The translations under genes were made by a program, and so were the position numbers. This document shows positions 3,270 to 20,300 of a DNA stretch of 21,423 bases, in pieces. Where the stretch lies: positions 1 to 21,423 of the IMG/VR virus record IMGVR_UViG_3300025687_000391; one strand, written 5' to 3'. The notes beneath the pieces are model-generated. The model saw only the letters and a list, made by a program, of their open reading frames with translations. It ran no database searches and was not told the DNA's origin. Source of the DNA: a virus. Position 1 is the first letter of the stretch, and each line of letters opens with the position of its first letter.

Positions 3270-3407
3270 ATGAGATCAAAAAATGAATTACAAAAACTTA
3301 TTGAACATGAGAGAAAACTTGCTAAATTGACTCCAAAAGTAGTTTCTACTCCGCCAGAGAAAGAACAAATAAAAAAACAAACTGATGTAAAGAAAACTAA
3401 AAAATAA
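3270..3407 (+). CDS. Small basic helical protein (45 aa), unknown
   Basis: ATG 3270 with AAGGGGA 7 nt upstream, one base after the previous stop. The product starts MRSKNELQKLIEHERKLAKL, a strongly helical, charged segment, followed by a Pro/Thr linker (TPKVVSTPPE) and a Lys-rich tail. No family recognised. Its stop codon ends at 3407 and tRNA-Pro begins at the next base, a junction with no spacer. Processing of the tRNA would cut the mRNA directly after its stop codon. Confidence 0.65.
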   Translation: MRSKNELQKLIEHERKLAKLTPKVVSTPPEKEQIKKQTDVKKTKK

Positions 3408-3478
3408 CGGGAATGTGGTGTAGTAGCAACACACCACTTTTGGGAAGTGGAAACGCCGTGCAAATCGGACATTCCCGA
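3408..3478 (+). tRNA. tRNA-Pro (anticodon UGG), T arm short
   Basis: Acceptor CGGGAAT pairs with ATTCCCG, giving the C1-G72 pair typical of bacterial tRNA-Pro. Anticodon stem CCACT/AGTGG encloses TTTGGGA (anticodon TGG). The D stem is GTG/CAC. The T arm is weak: only CCG/CGG around loop TGCAAAT, with two mismatched outer pairs and a short variable region. It lies directly upstream of the tmRNA acceptor piece. An alternative reading, that it is part of the tmRNA precursor, is unlikely because it closes its own acceptor stem. Confidence 0.75.
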
Positions 3479-3480
3479 TT

Positions 3481-3540
3481 GATATCGTTGATCTTTGTGA
3501 ACAACCCATTTGGACGGGGGTGCGAATCCCCCCGACTCCA
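3481..3540 (+). ncRNA. tmRNA acceptor piece
   Basis: About 60 nt that would become the small RNA of a two-piece tmRNA. It holds the 3' strand of the candidate P2 helix, the segment ATTTGGAC before the T arm (compare ATTTCGGAC in one-piece tmRNA), the T arm and the acceptor strand ending in discriminator A. CCA is not encoded. The exact 5' end is uncertain; it must lie after tRNA-Pro (3478). Confidence 0.75.
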
Positions 3541-3666
3541 TTCGACACTAGTGGCGTTCTGACGGAAACGCGGTCTTGACAAGAGACGCTCTTGCGTAAA
3601 ACGGTCTGTAAAATTGACCGACAAAGCAAGGTAGATGGTGTAATCCATCATAGTGTCCCAAACTAC
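3541..3666 (+). other. tmRNA intervening segment, strongly folded
   Basis: This sequence would be removed to give the two mature pieces. GACACTA (3544-3550) pairs with TAGTGTC (3651-3657) and encloses four hairpins: 3554-3571 (GCGTT/AACGC), 3580-3594 (CAAGAG/CTCTTG), 3602-3620 (CGGTC/GACCG) and 3634-3649 (GATGG/CCATC). The closing helix is followed by CCA (3658-3660). No open reading frame of interest is present. Confidence 0.6.
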
Positions 3667-3830
3667 GGGGTCGAATAGAATCGACAAGGGGAAGCGAGCA
3701 TAAGGGAGATATCCGTCACTGGCAACGAGTGTCGTGAAACAACGGTTGCAATTTTAAATGCCGCACCAATGCGGATGGCTGCTTGAAGCAGTGGGGATTG
3801 GTTCTCCCGCATCTGAACGAACCACCCCAC
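3667..3830 (+). ncRNA. tmRNA coding piece
   Basis: Starts with GGGGTCG, the acceptor 5' strand, then the D-loop region. A hairpin at 3713-3745 (CCGT/ACGG around CACT/AGTG) precedes the tag frame, where pseudoknot 1 sits in other tmRNAs. After the tag stop, 3791-3803 can pair with 3820-3830 (GTGGGG/CCCCAC and GGTT/AACC). The mature 3' end is probably near 3830. Confidence 0.7.
3748..3786 (+). other. tmRNA proteolysis-tag reading frame
   Basis: From a GCA codon at 3748 the frame reads AILNAAPMRMAA and ends at TGA 3784-3786. Tags that end in two alanines after a hydrophobic residue are the norm, because ClpXP and related proteases read the C-terminus. The resume codon is chosen as the first Ala codon in the frame; GTT at 3745 is the alternative. 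Codons 3761-3774 also form a CCGCA/TGCGG hairpin with a CCAA loop. Confidence 0.65.
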
Positions 3831-3850
3831 CAGAGATGGTGGGGTTTTTT
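3825..3850 (+). terminator. Rho-independent terminator of the tmRNA gene
   Basis: CCCCACC (3825-3831) pairs with GGTGGGG (3838-3844); an A-T pair closes a GAGA loop, and TTTTTT follows at 3845-3850. The 5' strand of this stem is also the 3' strand of the alternative helix with 3791-3796, so the two structures exclude each other. Confidence 0.9.
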
Positions 3851-3863
3851 ATATATACTAGTA

Positions 3864-3893
3864 CCTTTATATCATGTTTTTCTAGTATAAAGG
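3864..3893 (+). promoter_or_regulatory. Hairpin over the ribosome binding site of the holin-like gene
   Basis: CCTTTATA (3864-3871) pairs with TATAAAGG (3886-3893), 8 bp, loop 14 nt. The 3' strand includes most of the AAGGA ribosome binding site (3890-3894) 6 nt before the ATG, so the stem would hide it. Whether it tunes expression of the membrane protein is inference. Confidence 0.5.
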
Positions 3894-3899
3894 ATAAAC

Positions 3900-4229
3900 A
3901 TGCAGAACGACGATTTCCACTCACAGTTATTAAGATTCGGGATTGATTTAGGATTTTTAGTATCTGGATTCTTCGGTGCATTGATCTTATCAATCAAGAA
4001 GAAGAAGCAAAAACTAAGCAAACAAATAATGTGCATAACCATGGGTACTATTTGTGCGAATTTTCTCACACCACTAGTACTTAACTTCGCCCCCGAATCT
4101 CTTCAAGATAAGGGAAAATACGCGGTAGCATTCATGATGGGTTATATCGGACTCAAGAGTCTAGAGGAATTGTCAGATGTTATTTCTGATTATATTAAGT
4201 CCAAAAGACCAAAAACCCCAACCCCTTGA
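3900..4229 (+). CDS. Holin-like small membrane protein
   Basis: 109 residues from ATG 3900, with AAGGA 5 nt before it. Hydrophobic segments lie at about residues 15-32 (GIDLGFLVSGFFGALILSI), 43-62 (IMCITMGTICANFLTPLVLN) and 73-86 (YAVAFMMGYIGLKS), separated by a KKKKQK loop; the C-terminus is charged and ends KRPKTPTP. The size, two to three membrane spans and basic tail fit a phage holin, which would time lysis by permeabilising the inner membrane. No lysozyme or spanin gene is adjacent, so another small membrane role is possible. The final codons carry a promoter-like TTGACA. Confidence 0.55.
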   Translation: MQNDDFHSQLLRFGIDLGFLVSGFFGALILSIKKKKQKLSKQIMCITMGTICANFLTPLVLNFAPESLQDKGKYAVAFMMGYIGLKSLEELSDVISDYIKSKRPKTPTP

Positions 4230-4950: not shown

Positions 4951-5358
4951 ATGTCAATCAAAACATATAATGTGTTTAATACAATTCGTGTTAGTCCCCC
5001 GTTTCTCAGAAGAATGAAAGGAAAAAATATGTCAAAGATTACAAATTTATTCGTTAATGTTCTAGGGTGGGTTGGCGTTCTTACTCATGTCTTTGTGTTT
5101 TTCGCTGGCAAGAATCTTGCTCCTCGCACTGGAGATATGTTTGAACTGTTTGGTTCTCTCTGCTTCGGAGTCGGTGTGCTTGTTTATATCGCACTCAGCA
5201 AGACCGAAGCAGAATTCAAGCGTGAGCGTGACGATCTCTATCGTGAGTGGGATGCTTGCTATCGTTACATTGATGATGGTCTACGAGAAGTTCGTGATGA
5301 TGTAGAGAGACTAAATCATGTGTCTCAGTGCTGCAATGTGAAGAACTCACGAAAGTGA
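4951..5358 (+). CDS. Membrane protein with C-terminal coiled coil, unknown
   Basis: Start 4951 is chosen for its GGAGG 6 nt upstream; an internal ATG at 5029 (MSKITNLF, with AAAGGAAAAA before it) is an alternative. From the first start the 135 residues have a basic N-terminal segment, two hydrophobic spans (NLFVNVLGWVGVLTHVFVFF and FGSLCFGVGVLVYIAL), and a long charged helix (AEFKRERDDLYREWDACYRY onward) to residue about 125 with heptad-like spacing. The layout could suit a spanin- or holin-associated protein, but no family is recognised. Confidence 0.7.
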   Translation: MSIKTYNVFNTIRVSPPFLRRMKGKNMSKITNLFVNVLGWVGVLTHVFVFFAGKNLAPRTGDMFELFGSLCFGVGVLVYIALSKTEAEFKRERDDLYREWDACYRYIDDGLREVRDDVERLNHVSQCCNVKNSRK

Positions 5359-5380
5359 GAAATAATATACATAAAGGTGA

Positions 5381-5599
5381 ATGATTCAAGTCACATATCT
5401 CTACTCTTTTATTGAGTTAAGTGGCAAACCTAAAAGATTTTTAGAATCAAAACCTGAATGTAAAATTAGGGGTTACGGTGTCTCAACGGATGCCGTAACC
5501 CTTTCTGTTTGGTATGAGAATACCCAAGCATTTAATGTCATAAACAAAAGTCTTCAGGACCGATTCGGTATCGTTCCTCAAGATGTCAAGTTTGTTTAG
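5381..5599 (+). CDS. Small phage protein of unknown function (72 aa)
   Basis: ATG 5381, with AAAGGTGA just upstream. The product alternates short strands and helices (QVTYLYSFIELS, CKIRGYGVSTDAVTLSVWYE, FNVINKSLQDRFGIVPQDVK) and looks like a compact alpha/beta domain. It contains no known motif. It is followed after 9 nt by another small gene with a strong AGGAGG, probably co-transcribed. Confidence 0.65.
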   Translation: MIQVTYLYSFIELSGKPKRFLESKPECKIRGYGVSTDAVTLSVWYENTQAFNVINKSLQDRFGIVPQDVKFV

Positions 5600-14513: not shown

Positions 14514-17500
14514 ATGTCTATATTTTCTTTAGCATCATTACTTGGACAGGCAATTTCTGATTATTTCACTCCTACACCAGATTTGCCAAATCCAATCAGT
14601 CCAGCAGAATCAAGAATTCAAGAACTATACATTGAATCTGGATCTTCATTCTTTTTTAACACATCCTTCACAATAATTCCTTGGGAATCTGAAGTATATA
14701 CAGATTCTCCTTTAGTTTCCATGACATTTGAGGAATCTTTGTTTGTTGGACCGATGACTGGTTCTGTAGTGTTGTATGATGTTAGAAACTGGACTAATGA
14801 AATTAAATTAAATGGAAAAGACACTTTAGTCTTAAAGGTAAAAATTGGTGATTCGGAAGATGTCACCGAATTTAGATTTCATATCCATGCTGCAAAAAAT
14901 ATAACAAACGAAGCAAAGCAAACTGACTATACCACATTGGATGAGAGATATAGTCTTTGGAAGTTGGATCTCATTAGTTCTGAAATATTTCTTCCAAACT
15001 ATACAACATCATTTCTCAATGACAATGAAGACTTTGTTGGAAAAATAGCAACAGATCAAGAAGGAAATCAGGGATTAATTTCTACAGCAATACAAAGTAT
15101 AAGTGAGTTTGTGTTTGGCGAATCTGAAGTTGGACTTATAAATGTTCTTTTTGAATATTATAAATTGCCAATTGGAAAGATTGACTCTGCCAAGAATGGC
15201 ATATGGTTGAAGCACGATCATGTCTCTTACCCCTGGATGAAGAGAAAAGGGCAAATGAGAATCACTCAAATGCTCAATTATATCTCAAAGTATGCCTGGG
15301 ATGGCACTGGAACAAATGGACATCCTCTTGGAGTATTGTCATTTGTTGATGTTCTTGACTTGTATGCTCCTACTCTGTATGCAGATTATTACTGCTGGCA
15401 CGATAGAAACGGATGGAACTTCAGATCTCTTTCCAAGATCTTAAAGGAAAAGAATTCAGAACTTGACGATACATTCTTAATTACGATTGATCAAAACAAT
15501 CCAAAGAGAATTCACAACTACGAAGTGTTGAGTCAAAATAATATTCAGTGGTTGTATGATTCTGGTGGTTTGTTTTCTTATTATGAGAGAATTGATCCAG
15601 ACTATACTAATCCTTACATTGACTTCACAAGTAGCGATGATTGCTTTATCAAGAAAACCGTAACCTATGATTATCATAGAGATTACTCCAGAATAGAGCA
15701 TATTGAGAAGAATAAACTAGTTTCGGATGATATTGATACTTCACCATTCAACGAACTCACAACTGCCAAACAGAATTCAAAAGTAGATGATGAGATATAT
15801 GGATACTTTAGCGAAAAAGTACTCAACAATCCACATCCAGTCAAGTGGGAAGTATATAACCACAGAGCAAGTTCTCCTTGGTCGAGGAAGGCATGGCAAC
15901 CTCAATTTGATTTGACAGACCTTACATTCTCTACATTTGAAAAGATACACAAAGAGATTCGTGTTCCACTTAAAGCGAAAAGACAAGAATACGCAGAGAA
16001 AAAAGACATCAAACGAAAATGGGAAACGTATAGATGTACCGTCTGCTGTCATGCCGATGGACCTCTTGGTTCCAAGGAAGATTTAGAAATTCTGGAAAAC
16101 CCAGGACCAATTGATGGCATTACATATCAGGCACTCTTTGGAGCAACTGGCATCTATGGATCAATCAAAGAAGACGAATATAAGATCGTTGCTGCTGGAT
16201 CTTTCACAGATCTAATCAACTACGATCCAGGCAATACTGCAAATCAGTATGGTCTAACATACTCGTATGATCTTACAAAAGCACCATACAATGAAACAAT
16301 TGGTCAGTTCTTCAATATAGTTGGACCAGAAGCACCAGCAGCATATAAAAAATACGCACTACAAAGATCTTTAAATCTCTATAATATACTCCTTCAAAAG
16401 ATCAGCAAAAGAATTAATGATATTGATCTATTTTTGGGAAATGTAAATCAATATAAATTCAATGCCATACAGATCCTAGATAAAGCAACTATTGACAAAC
16501 AGTCGGATTCTTATAGACCAGTTGATCTTTCTCAAGGATTTAGATATGTCGGAGATTCTTTCCCAGGAGAAAATCTAGGACCATTCATTGGAAGCGAAAC
16601 CAGACAGTGGCCTATATCTGAACAAGAATACGGTCTTGTCCCATATACTGCCATTCCTATAAACAAAGGATTGGGTGTTGTTGTTTTTGGAGAAGATCCA
16701 AATGGAAATCAACTCACCTATAGATTTTCCAATTTTGCAGGCGGTGAGGGATGTTGTCAATATTGTACAGGTAATCCGAATGAATCGTATATATTAGAAG
16801 GTTCATGTTCTTATTATGGTGCTATAGTTAATGGAAATTTACCATATAATGATCTTCCACAATACCCACCAGACTGGGCTAACAATTCGTATGGATGTCA
16901 GGGATATTATTCATTTGGACCAGGTGCGAGTATCGCACAAGCATGGTCAGAAGACGCATGTGCGGGTGGAGCATGTTGTCGCGAAGGTACATTTGGTAAT
17001 TTTGGAAATTGCAGCATAGAAATAGAAGCAGGATGTTCTGGTGGACAATGGCAAGGACCAGGAACATCTTGTATTGATGATAATGGATTCCTGACATGTG
17101 AAAGTTACGATTGTGACACCAACCCAGAAAACTGTACATGGTGTTGTATTCGTGGAGCACAAGCAGGAGATCCAAGCTATCCAGCATTTATTCCAATTCC
17201 AGAATGTGCGGCATTGGCAGCAGAAAATCCAGCTCGTGGTTATAGCATTGAAGATCCAGAACAATGTACATACGATCCAGGAACTCCAGACGACGGAGTT
17301 GAAAATTGCTGCTTAAGTGTTGCGGCATTTGGTGTGAGTGTTTGTGTTCCTCTTCCAAATGGATTTTGTGGAACTCAAGATTTCCTAGGATCTGTAGTTG
17401 AAAATTGTTCAGAGTGTATAGTAGATGACGACGTAACCGTTATAATCGTTCCTGGAACTCCTGGTCCAACTGGACCAACTGGACCCACAGGACCAACTGG

Positions 17501-20300
17501 ACCCACAGGACCATCTGGATTGCCAACAGACGAAGATGTGGTTTATGTAAATCCCAATCTACTGGCACAATGCTCAAACGATCCAGTTGTTCGTGGATAC
17601 ATCAAACACATCAACCGACAAGCAGCATCTGAGTATTCTCCTATATATGATTACGCTGCTCCATATCTTTGGGATGATGGTGTCAAGGATTGGTCGTTCT
17701 TTGATTATGGATCAGAATCTGGATTGATACCAGCAATCACCGACGAAGAAATTAGAAACACGACCAAAGAATGTTTAGAAAATGTACAATGCTACAACAC
17801 GACATGTCTCAGTCCCGTTTCTCTGGAAACTCTAAGAAGAACAGTAGTAGTTGAAAAACAATTGTTGCTTGTAGAGTTTGAATTAACAGAAAAACTCAAA
17901 TCAGAAATAGCAAGCAAATTTATCAATTCTTGGAACACTTCTTATCAAGAGTGGTATCAGAGAAATGCTTTCTTCTTCTCGAAGAATCCAGGTGCTTCGA
18001 TATTCAGAAACGAACAAACAGGTGTTTCTGGTATAAATTCACCTCTTTCTCTTCAGAATGTAAAGAAAATAACAAGAAAAGAAATTCGTGGAAGTAGATA
18101 CGAACTCTTATCAAACAAGGTAGGAATCACTGGTGCTTCTGCGGGAGAGTGGTTGTATGAAATATTCTTCGGAGGAGATGCTGGTTCTACAGCACATCCA
18201 TACTACGATCAGGGGTATAATTCTCAACCATTTGTGACATCAAGATCTCCTCATGTTTGGTTCGGAAGAACTGACGCAGATGGAACAGATGACTTTACAT
18301 TCTTTATTGATAATACTTCATTTACGGCAAATGCTGGAAATTATTATCCATCGTATTCTGGAAATGAAGCAGTAGTTCCTGGTGTTGCTCATATTGATTT
18401 GTATTCTCACAATCCAAACAACATAGTTCCAGCAAGCAGATTGCTGAATAGTTCGTATGGACAGGCACAATCGGATCTTTCTGGAACTCTTACTGATTTT
18501 AAAGACACTTACAACTTCTATGATGTGACTGGAAGGAAACCAGCAAATGTCAAGAAGGAAGAAATCTCTTCTTATGTCAGAATTGAATTCAATACGCCCA
18601 TCGGTCTTGATACAATTAAGGATTTCCCAAATGCGTTCATCCGTGATGCTGGTATTGAATACTTCTTGCCATATCTTGTGAATGTAACTCCTGGTCCATT
18701 CGGAAGACAAGGTGTCAAGTACAATATTGCCGTCATTGGAATGGATCCTTACGGATTTGATGTTGCCGTAAAGAAGATCAAGGATGATCTTCCAAGCAAT
18801 CGCAAATTACAAGGCATTAACAAGGGCAATTATTACAACTGGTGGAATCACGATACTGGATCTGTTTTGTCAAAGGCAGATTATCTAACACCAGATTACA
18901 ATGGCATGGATCTTTGGCCTGAACCTGGATTTGAAACTGATTATCCATATTACGCATACGATCCAGCACAAGAAGATCTTCATGGTGGAGGGTATGATCT
19001 AGATTTCCACATGGGTGGTGGATACTACTTTGAGAATGAGTCTCAAGACTGGATGGAATCTCTATACCACTACGGGGTTTCTTCTGGCAAGCAATTTGAT
19101 CCACTTTATAGAACGTCAGTTGTAGGATCTTATATTCTTCCAAACAGTTATCGTAAGTTAAAACCACACCGTTCGTGGTGGTCGTTGTTTGTGCCAAGAA
19201 ATCTATTCATACCAATTCGTTTTGCGAATATGTTCAAGACTCCAAATACCAAGGCAAGAGACTTGTTTGGTGGCAAGGCAATATTCACAATCAATCCAAA
19301 TTACTGGAGAACTTGGTATGGAAGTGAATTTGAAACCTGGTTGACCTTGGACAACAATCCAACAACAAAGGCATTGATGGAAAACAGTGCTCCAGACCTT
19401 ACATTCTTTATTGAAGGCAAAGATGGAGATTCCATTTCTCCGTACACAACCGACTTACAAGGTTATTTCCACGAATCTCTGATGAATTATATCGCTGGAA
19501 ATTACAATCTTTACAGACCAGGATTGGTTGCGACAGATCTCTGGAAATATGATCTCAGTGGTGAGACTGAATATGGATTGATCACTCCACCAGTGGATAC
19601 AGAGTACGAATTCTTTGATCGTAACTTTGCAGCACAATTTGTGGTATTTGCCAAGTCAAGACTTCGTACATGTAACGATTTAGGTCTTTCCTGTGCAAAT
19701 CCAAATCAAGTTATTGTAAATTCCGATGGTTGTCCAAATACGAACTACTACTGTAACTGTCCAGCACAGAACGTAAAACCAACAGAAACAGAACCAACAT
19801 ATTTGGAACTGTACAGACTGGAAAAGGAAATCAATGAATGTGCGATGATTGAAGAAGTTCTTGGGGAGGAATATCTTGGTTGTGAGTATTCTGATCCAGA
19901 ATCTACATGTAGTTGTAATTGTCCAGAGTGGGGAGAGAAGTTCAATGAATATCTGGCATATACCAGAACATATGCGACTTTCTGGGAAACACCTTATGAA
20001 GTTCCACTCATGAGAAATGCCCATTCTGCTCAGTTGAGTTCTCAGCAAATCAGAATTAAAGTCACTTCAAATTCGGTTGTCAATGTTGGATCTTTGGTAT
20101 CGGTCATCAATGAAAATGATGCTCCTTTATATACGCAAGATCAATATAAGGCAATTTCTGGAACTTGGATGGTTTCGGGAATCCAACACATGTTCGCGAC
20201 TCCGAGAACATATTACATGATTCTCACCCTAGTAAGAGACTCTAATTATTTTGATCCAAACGATATAACATCTCCAGTCAAACCATTTGTTTTAACCTAA
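14514..20300 (+). CDS. Giant gp27-like baseplate hub protein with Cys-rich and collagen-like inserts
   Basis: 1928 residues (T4 gp27: 391). The N-terminus (ESLFVGPMTGSVVLYDVRNW, then helix and strand repeats) and the very C-terminus (AISGTWMVSGIQHMF ... YYMILTLVRDSNYF) resemble the two ends of gp27-type hub proteins; the long middle is an insertion. Residues 747-968 carry about 20 Cys, many as CC (EGCCQYC, GACCREG, TWCCIRG, ENCCLSV). Residues 980-1002 are seven Gly-Pro-Thr-type collagen triplets. A second Cys cluster spans residues 1720-1803. The rest is mixed beta and Tyr/Asn-rich. A hub role is supported by position between gp53 and gp25; the insert may be a surface-exposed host-contact arm. 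There is no lysozyme motif. Confidence 0.75.
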   Translation: MSIFSLASLLGQAISDYFTPTPDLPNPISPAESRIQELYIESGSSFFFNTSFTIIPWESEVYTDSPLVSMTFEESLFVGPMTGSVVLYDVRNWTNEIKLNGKDTLVLKVKIGDSEDVTEFRFHIHAAKNITNEAKQTDYTTLDERYSLWKLDLISSEIFLPNYTTSFLNDNEDFVGKIATDQEGNQGLISTAIQSISEFVFGESEVGLINVLFEYYKLPIGKIDSAKNGIWLKHDHVSYPWMKRKGQMRITQMLNYISKYAWDGTGTNGHPLGVLSFVDVLDLYAPTLYADYYCWHDRNGWNFRSLSKILKEKNSELDDTFLITIDQNNPKRIHNYEVLSQNNIQWLYDSGGLFSYYERIDPDYTNPYIDFTSSDDCFIKKTVTYDYHRDYSRIEHIEKNKLVSDDIDTSPFNELTTAKQNSKVDDEIYGYFSEKVLNNPHPVKWEVYNHRASSPWSRKAWQPQFDLTDLTFSTFEKIHKEIRVPLKAKRQEYAEKKDIKRKWETYRCTVCCHADGPLGSKEDLEILENPGPIDGITYQALFGATGIYGSIKEDEYKIVAAGSFTDLINYDPGNTANQYGLTYSYDLTKAPYNETIGQFFNIVGPEAPAAYKKYALQRSLNLYNILLQKISKRINDIDLFLGNVNQYKFNAIQILDKATIDKQSDSYRPVDLSQGFRYVGDSFPGENLGPFIGSETRQWPISEQEYGLVPYTAIPINKGLGVVVFGEDPNGNQLTYRFSNFAGGEGCCQYCTGNPNESYILEGSCSYYGAIVNGNLPYNDLPQYPPDWANNSYGCQGYYSFGPGASIAQAWSEDACAGGACCREGTFGNFGNCSIEIEAGCSGGQWQGPGTSCIDDNGFLTCESYDCDTNPENCTWCCIRGAQAGDPSYPAFIPIPECAALAAENPARGYSIEDPEQCTYDPGTPDDGVENCCLSVAAFGVSVCVPLPNGFCGTQDFLGSVVENCSECIVDDDVTVIIVPGTPGPTGPTGPTGPTGPTGPSGLPTDEDVVYVNPNLLAQCSNDPVVRGYIKHINRQAASEYSPIYDYAAPYLWDDGVKDWSFFDYGSESGLIPAITDEEIRNTTKECLENVQCYNTTCLSPVSLETLRRTVVVEKQLLLVEFELTEKLKSEIASKFINSWNTSYQEWYQRNAFFFSKNPGASIFRNEQTGVSGINSPLSLQNVKKITRKEIRGSRYELLSNKVGITGASAGEWLYEIFFGGDAGSTAHPYYDQGYNSQPFVTSRSPHVWFGRTDADGTDDFTFFIDNTSFTANAGNYYPSYSGNEAVVPGVAHIDLYSHNPNNIVPASRLLNSSYGQAQSDLSGTLTDFKDTYNFYDVTGRKPANVKKEEISSYVRIEFNTPIGLDTIKDFPNAFIRDAGIEYFLPYLVNVTPGPFGRQGVKYNIAVIGMDPYGFDVAVKKIKDDLPSNRKLQGINKGNYYNWWNHDTGSVLSKADYLTPDYNGMDLWPEPGFETDYPYYAYDPAQEDLHGGGYDLDFHMGGGYYFENESQDWMESLYHYGVSSGKQFDPLYRTSVVGSYILPNSYRKLKPHRSWWSLFVPRNLFIPIRFANMFKTPNTKARDLFGGKAIFTINPNYWRTWYGSEFETWLTLDNNPTTKALMENSAPDLTFFIEGKDGDSISPYTTDLQGYFHESLMNYIAGNYNLYRPGLVATDLWKYDLSGETEYGLITPPVDTEYEFFDRNFAAQFVVFAKSRLRTCNDLGLSCANPNQVIVNSDGCPNTNYYCNCPAQNVKPTETEPTYLELYRLEKEINECAMIEEVLGEEYLGCEYSDPESTCSCNCPEWGEKFNEYLAYTRTYATFWETPYEVPLMRNAHSAQLSSQQIRIKVTSNSVVNVGSLVSVINENDAPLYTQDQYKAISGTWMVSGIQHMFATPRTYYMILTLVRDSNYFDPNDITSPVKPFVLT
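17451..17519 (+). repeat. Collagen-like Gly-X-Y repeat
   Basis: Codes for PGTPGPTGPTGP... , seven G-X-Y triplets, mostly GPT. The DNA holds an 18-bp unit repeated in tandem (17480-17515 region), suggesting slippage. Such repeats make short triple helices that trimerise fibres. Confidence 0.9.

Follow-up and report, generated by a model that had tools for sequence, protein, structure and literature searches.

A conserved RNA nested between the halves of a permuted tmRNA gene in a T4-like phage contig

Main finding

We describe here a permuted tmRNA gene in which the stretch of approximately 126 nt between the two tmRNA halves is no simple linker: it contains a separate RNA, conserved and about 114 nt long. 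The gene lies in a 21-kb IMG/VR virus record with T4-type genes (IMGVR_UViG_3300025687_000391, positions 1 to 21,423), the whole of which, 21,423 nucleotides, was analyzed and is referred to below as the window. We estimate a probability of about 0.7 that this is a two-piece tmRNA gene of a T4-like phage with another tRNA-like RNA, conserved independently, in its spacer. No permuted tmRNA in which the halves enclose a further conserved structured RNA has been described, as far as searches of Rfam and the literature show.

A permuted tmRNA gene and its relatives

A search of the whole window with cmscan matches the Rfam family tmRNA_permuted (RF04321) at 3481-3786 with 66.4 bits (E 4.7e-11), exceeding the gathering score of 47 bits, and a second, independent program, ARAGORN, calls a permuted tmRNA at 3451-3877 with the tag AAPMRMAA at 3760-3786. 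A sequence-only reading of this DNA had proposed such a gene, phage-encoded, and expected it to be recognized both by ARAGORN and by covariance models for permuted tmRNAs. The gene itself is upheld by the agreement of the two programs and by covariation in relatives, and its phage origin by the gp32-like ssDNA-binding protein, tail tube, head closure, and baseplate wedge families encoded on the same contig; among the covariance models RF04321 recognizes it, but the older alphaproteobacterial tmRNA model (RF01849) gives 32.3 bits against a cut-off of 50.

The gene order is permuted, with the tRNA 3' half upstream of the 5' half, and all of the features described here are on the plus strand of the window. 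The acceptor (3') piece, delimited by the RF04321 alignment, the sequence, and acceptor covariation, spans 3481-3540 and comprises a helix-2 strand, a T arm (3516-3532), the acceptor 3' strand CGACTCC (3533-3539), and the discriminator A3540; CCA is not encoded, the 3' end being CTCCATTC. The coding (5') piece is placed at 3667-3820 by the RF04321 alignment and ARAGORN, with an approximate 3' boundary, and contains the acceptor 5' strand GGGGTCG (3667-3673), a D-loop region, a helix-2 strand extending to about 3713, and the mRNA-like domain. The two acceptor strands are located precisely as first proposed, and form seven pairs including G3-U70. The tag reading frame (3760-3786, ARAGORN) has a GCC resume codon followed by the peptide AAPMRMAA and TGA, so that the predicted Ala-Ala-stop ending is present, and it is conserved in relatives. 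A terminator-like hairpin with a T tail (hairpin 3824-3845, whole feature 3824-3850) is also seen in the sequence where a terminator had been suggested, but a single site of this kind is close to the level in shuffled sequences (0.8 expected). We infer that the gene gives rise to two mature tmRNA pieces.

Directly upstream of the tmRNA is a tRNA-Pro(UGG) gene (3408-3478, plus strand) with a shortened and imperfect T arm/stem (ARAGORN; 46.9 bits with RF00005), and the two are probably in one transcript. In the near-identical contig L122 an unrelated tRNA-Pro is found at the same place, which suggests that the tRNA gene has been replaced at this spot between the two contigs. Elsewhere in the window, a 1928-aa open frame (14514-20300) lies between baseplate genes and has a C-terminal tail-protein match and a GPTGPTGP collagen-like stretch.

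Loci of relatives were collected via gp32 and via a holin-like gene that sits downstream of the window tmRNA, and many carry the same tmRNA. The acceptor pairing, upon which the initial interpretation depended, is kept in these genomes, with all seven pairs present, an invariant G3-U70, and compensatory changes at pairs 4, 5, and 6. The acceptor forms include GGGGTCG/CGACTCC, GGGGATG/CATCTCC, GGGGCTG/CGGCTCC, and GGGACCG/CGGTTCC, among others; G1-C, G2-C, G3-U70, and G7-C are constant across those given, while pairs 4, 5, and 6 vary on both strands. The tags in the group have eight residues (AAPMRMAA, AAPMRRAA, GAPMRMAA, AAPMAMAA, ANQMAMAA, AEELAIAA, ANEMAMAA, and ANELAMAA), and synonymous third-base changes beneath the conserved peptide make it appear, on the sequences compared, to be under selection. 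This conservation, together with the difference between (A/G)APMR(M/R)AA and its relatives and the ANDxxxxALAA type of many other viral tmRNAs, is consistent with the earlier suggestion of a phage-tailored tag.

The supposed rarity of permuted phage tmRNAs is not borne out, as an example is already published (Melnitz) and they are common in IMG/VR. The paper on Melnitz reports 402 phages with tmRNA, with 133 unique structures of which 53 are predicted to be two-piece, and 50 of these 53 are from marine or aquatic phages (PMC9004378). ARAGORN identifies at least 56 permuted tmRNAs in at least 120 IMG/VR stretches matching one T-arm pattern, and self-pairing spacers occur in many other viral permuted tmRNAs. 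Phage permuted tmRNAs are thus a known and common kind, of which the window tmRNA is a further member.

Structure and conservation of the nested RNA

The nested RNA (3544-3657, plus strand) is predicted to fold as a tRNA-like five-way junction. Its acceptor-like closing stem (3544-3550/3651-3657) has 5-7 bp across the family and no acceptor G3-U70. Within it are a D-like hairpin (3554-3571) of 5 bp with the loop GGUNNGAA in most groups, a 5-bp hairpin at the place of the anticodon arm (3573-3587) with the pentaloop GACAA or GAGAA, and GAUAA once, a long arm (3591-3595/3626-3630 and 3602-3606/3616-3620), and a T-like arm of 5 bp (3634-3649). The long arm contains an invariant internal loop, GUAAAACGGU/ACCGA (as RNA GUAAAA-CGGU/ACCG-A), which is the most conserved part of the nested RNA and is far from its ends; the pentaloop hairpin and this internal loop are both near-invariant. 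The T-like arm has a 7-nt T-type loop (for example TTCGAAT) in all 14 of the non-nested copies compared, with the loops UUCGAAU, UUCAAAU, UUUAAAU, UGCAAAU or similar; most nested copies, that of the window among them, have a shortened 6-nt loop, UGUAAU or UGCAAU. The tRNA-like tertiary fold may therefore be lost in the latter.

Several observations show that this is a conserved structure. The 126-nt spacer has a folding energy of -40.2 kcal/mol, compared with -28.8 +/- 3.3 kcal/mol for shuffled sequences (z -3.5). A covariance model built from 10 sequences, with the window's group left out (model R1), recovers that group at 72-90 bits, and the window copy (3545-3656) at 83.3 bits (E 1.7e-18). 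In the 10-sequence alignment 98.1% of the cells are paired and double changes are present at 15 of the 31 pairs, a level reached in 0 of 500 shuffles, and RNAalifold returns the same fold unaided, without being given the structure. With 33 distinct sequences, in a model-fitted alignment that leans towards the model, 98.0% of the cells are paired, double compensatory changes occur at 19 of the 31 pairs, and the covariation score is 0.50, compared with 0.18 for shuffled and at most 0.07 for slid alignments. Sequence identity is 85-95% in the nearest group and the RNA is far more divergent in other groups. Beyond these copies there is a weak tail of R1 matches, all 17 of which coincide with tRNA genes.

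A search of Rfam 15 with the nested RNA found no family at or near its cut-off, only matches at chance level with E up to 10, and it is well supported that the nested RNA is a real family absent from Rfam. None of the spacers tested yields a tRNA with ARAGORN, the Rfam tRNA model has no match at the nested RNA, and the 7-nt anticodon loop with U33 that characterizes tRNAs is lacking. No copy was found by blastn against INPHARED phages and PLSDB plasmids, and a literature search, thin on subscription journals, returned no description of the RNA. A bacterial origin was considered and rejected, because the invariant loop, sought in 84,980 bacterial and archaeal species, gave 12 matches, none of them with the flanking fold and together consistent with chance. 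No Rfam match to a glutamine riboswitch, which the Melnitz gene is reported to contain, was found in 3400-3900, and no match to a hammerhead or other self-cleaving ribozyme was found in the spacer.

Genomic settings of the nested RNA

RNAs of the nested type are present in 41 phage records, always on the tmRNA strand and either inside or 5' of the tmRNA wherever one was found. In 20 of these, the window included, the RNA is nested inside a permuted tmRNA, and in two more (L250 and L259) inside apparent tmRNA remnants without an mRNA domain. Nine records have it upstream of a separate permuted tmRNA, at a distance of 13-625 nt, and in three (L273 1312-1772, L282 5553-6013, and L306 4768-5225) it is 4-5 nt 5' of a one-piece tmRNA (118-129 bits). 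Whether the tmRNA is permuted or one-piece, the element can thus immediately precede its 5' half, an arrangement that may be relevant to the origin of the permutation. The remaining seven copies are in tRNA arrays, in records of up to 113 kb with no detected tmRNA; we therefore dropped the notion that the RNA is always tmRNA-linked, and a role inside trans-translation is not required.

Nine related tmRNAs (L130, L136-L138, L182, L188, L202, L204, and L205) have spacers of just 5-11 nt without the nested RNA, showing that the tmRNA does not need it, and a search of the short-spacer records of this clade for a copy elsewhere in the record found none. Nor is it general to phage tmRNAs, as a survey of 99 tmRNA-type viral stretches found no strong copy and a single 28.6-bit match.

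Other unusual arrangements were seen among these loci. In L269 (minus strand, 655-851) the spacer carries the nested RNA and then a complete tRNA-Pro(UGG), so a spacer can carry two RNAs. In L250 (minus strand, 50-300) and L259 (2600-2880) a tmRNA 3' half and the nested RNA precede a short 5' half, after which comes a terminator-like hairpin. Both loci lack the mRNA domain, no further permuted tmRNA was found in these 81-93 kb records, and by analogy with phage DS6A these are possibly tag-less tmRNAs. In L275 (5923-6202) and L276 (1568-1845), from phages that also have a free-standing copy, the spacer of the permuted tmRNA is of another kind, long and conserved (ATTAGCCTAACCGAA...), and may be a further structured RNA. 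The 117-nt spacer in L111 (minus strand, 5083-5513) contains a perfect T arm (ACAGG TTCAAAT CCTGT) adjoining a closing stem, and is perhaps another tRNA-like RNA within a tmRNA. A 67-nt tRNA-like gene with a 5-nt loop at the anticodon place, missed by ARAGORN, is present in L255 (9509-9576; 32.8 bits with the Rfam tRNA model) and L205 (4439-4505). Contigs with a nested-type RNA also include Pistol ribozymes (60.6 bits; L273 4010-4077 and L282 3260-3327) and a group I intron (64.3 bits; L307 6604-6784).

Possible roles of the nested RNA

In the mechanism that we propose, the gene would probably be transcribed with the upstream tRNA-Pro, and the T-tailed hairpin would end the transcript. The tRNA-processing machinery of the host (RNase P, tRNase Z or exonucleases, and CCA addition) would then cut the transcript at the tmRNA acceptor ends, the route inferred for other permuted tmRNAs (PMC3985003), releasing the acceptor and coding pieces together with a free tRNA-like RNA derived from the spacer. 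The tmRNA would act with host SmpB and AlaRS, adding the phage-type tag; no SmpB gene was found in a search of 27 phage records, many of them fragments, and the host would have to supply it.

Because there are close relatives without the nested RNA, and others with it outside of tmRNAs, it should have a role of its own. An acceptor-like and a T-like arm in an RNA that has no 7-nt anticodon loop suggest, as the likeliest single role although at well under even odds, a tRNA mimic or decoy that would engage a host tRNA-handling factor, a tentative assignment based on the modeled fold. More broadly, it is conceivable, at somewhat short of even odds, that these RNAs are a new family of anticodon-less tRNA mimics of T4-like phages, existing either as a free gene within tRNA arrays or as cargo cut from a permuted-tmRNA spacer, and decoying a host tRNA-handling or ribosome-rescue factor.

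The best of the competing explanations, which we regard as rather unlikely but still a serious contender, is that the nested RNA serves just as a structured spacer, keeping the acceptor halves together or helping RNase P or tRNase Z to cut, and has no independent existence. Self-pairing spacers in many other viral permuted tmRNAs and the loss of the 7-nt T-like loop from most nested copies are in keeping with this, but spacers of 5-11 nt suffice in related tmRNAs, the same RNA is found outside tmRNAs, beside one-piece tmRNAs, and in tRNA arrays, and conservation is highest in an internal loop distant from the ends. Less likely again, though also still in contention, is that the RNA is a selfish or hitchhiking element, spreading by recombination among phage tRNA and tmRNA loci without benefit to the phage. 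Such an element could account for the occupied and empty tmRNA sites among close relatives and for the occurrence in at least four genomic settings; however, the RNA has no coding capacity or mobility gene, is confined to the tmRNA strand and to positions inside or 5' of the tmRNA wherever one is found, and has helices under purifying selection with compensatory change. The coincidence of weak R1 matches with tRNA genes and the real tRNA-Pro in the L269 spacer raise the question of whether the nested RNA could be a true tRNA, in decay or of an unusual type such as class II, trapped in the spacer. This is very improbable given the absence of tRNA calls by ARAGORN in the spacers tested and of an Rfam tRNA match at the element, the lack of a 7-nt anticodon loop with U33, and a pentaloop hairpin and internal loop that are near-invariant rather than decaying. 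Finally, chance resemblance as the source of the tmRNA call itself, for which only the modest score with the older alphaproteobacterial model (32.3 bits, cut-off 50) speaks, can be dismissed, since two programs agree (E 4.7e-11) and it is refuted by the acceptor compensatory changes with invariant G3-U70 and by the conserved tag in relatives.

Our preferred reading therefore remains that of a two-piece tmRNA gene with an independently conserved RNA in its spacer. The RNA family is well defined, with a characteristic fold, an invariant loop, and 41 records, and can be synthesized and tested. Its covariation makes it a marker with which to follow the cutting of permuted tmRNA precursors, it is a tractable putative tRNA mimic whose host target can be sought, and the orphan stable RNAs of phage T4 may usefully be compared with it.

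Comparison with known systems

The Methylophilales phage Melnitz and the Pelagibacter phage Mosig share with the window a permuted tmRNA in a T4-like aquatic phage (PMC9004378). Their tmRNAs match RF04321 at 113.4 bits and 93.6 bits, respectively, and have the tags ANDNYVPVDYALAA (Melnitz) and GEDNFALAA (Mosig), in contrast to the 8-aa AAPMRMAA of the window. Both encode CCA (CTCCACCA), whereas the window (CTCCATTC) does not, and the nested RNA is absent from both. The Melnitz spacer (L313, approximately 1565-1706) is 142 nt long and contains an ATG following a GGAG ribosome-site-like sequence, with an open frame running into the coding piece.

The alphaproteobacterial two-piece tmRNA (RF01849), functional in Caulobacter according to Keiler et al. 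2000 as cited in PMC9004378, has its gene order and its acceptor and T-arm design in common with the window tmRNA, but the latter scores below threshold with that model (32.3 bits) and has an additional RNA in its spacer.

The RNA that the nested RNA most resembles in its setting and overall shape is T4 stable RNA C, also known as species 1 RNA (rnaC), which is encoded in the T4 tRNA cluster and has no known role (PMC3014915). Both are small RNAs of T4-type phages found in tRNA arrays. Homology is not supported by R1, which scores rnaC at only 13.0 bits, below some T4 tRNAs, and no shared sequence was found. The 3' part of rnaC (L297 1411-1501, minus strand) folds into an acceptor CGGAACG/CGTTTCG with a G-U third pair, a long variable-like arm, and a T arm.

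Phage DS6A encodes an RNA consisting only of the tRNA-like domain of tmRNA, and a similar molecule inhibits tmRNA, perhaps by titrating SmpB (PMC4131195). Like the nested RNA, it is a phage tRNA-like RNA without a tag frame, but the DS6A RNA is a reduced tmRNA, whereas the nested RNA lacks the acceptor G3-U70 and has a different, five-way fold.
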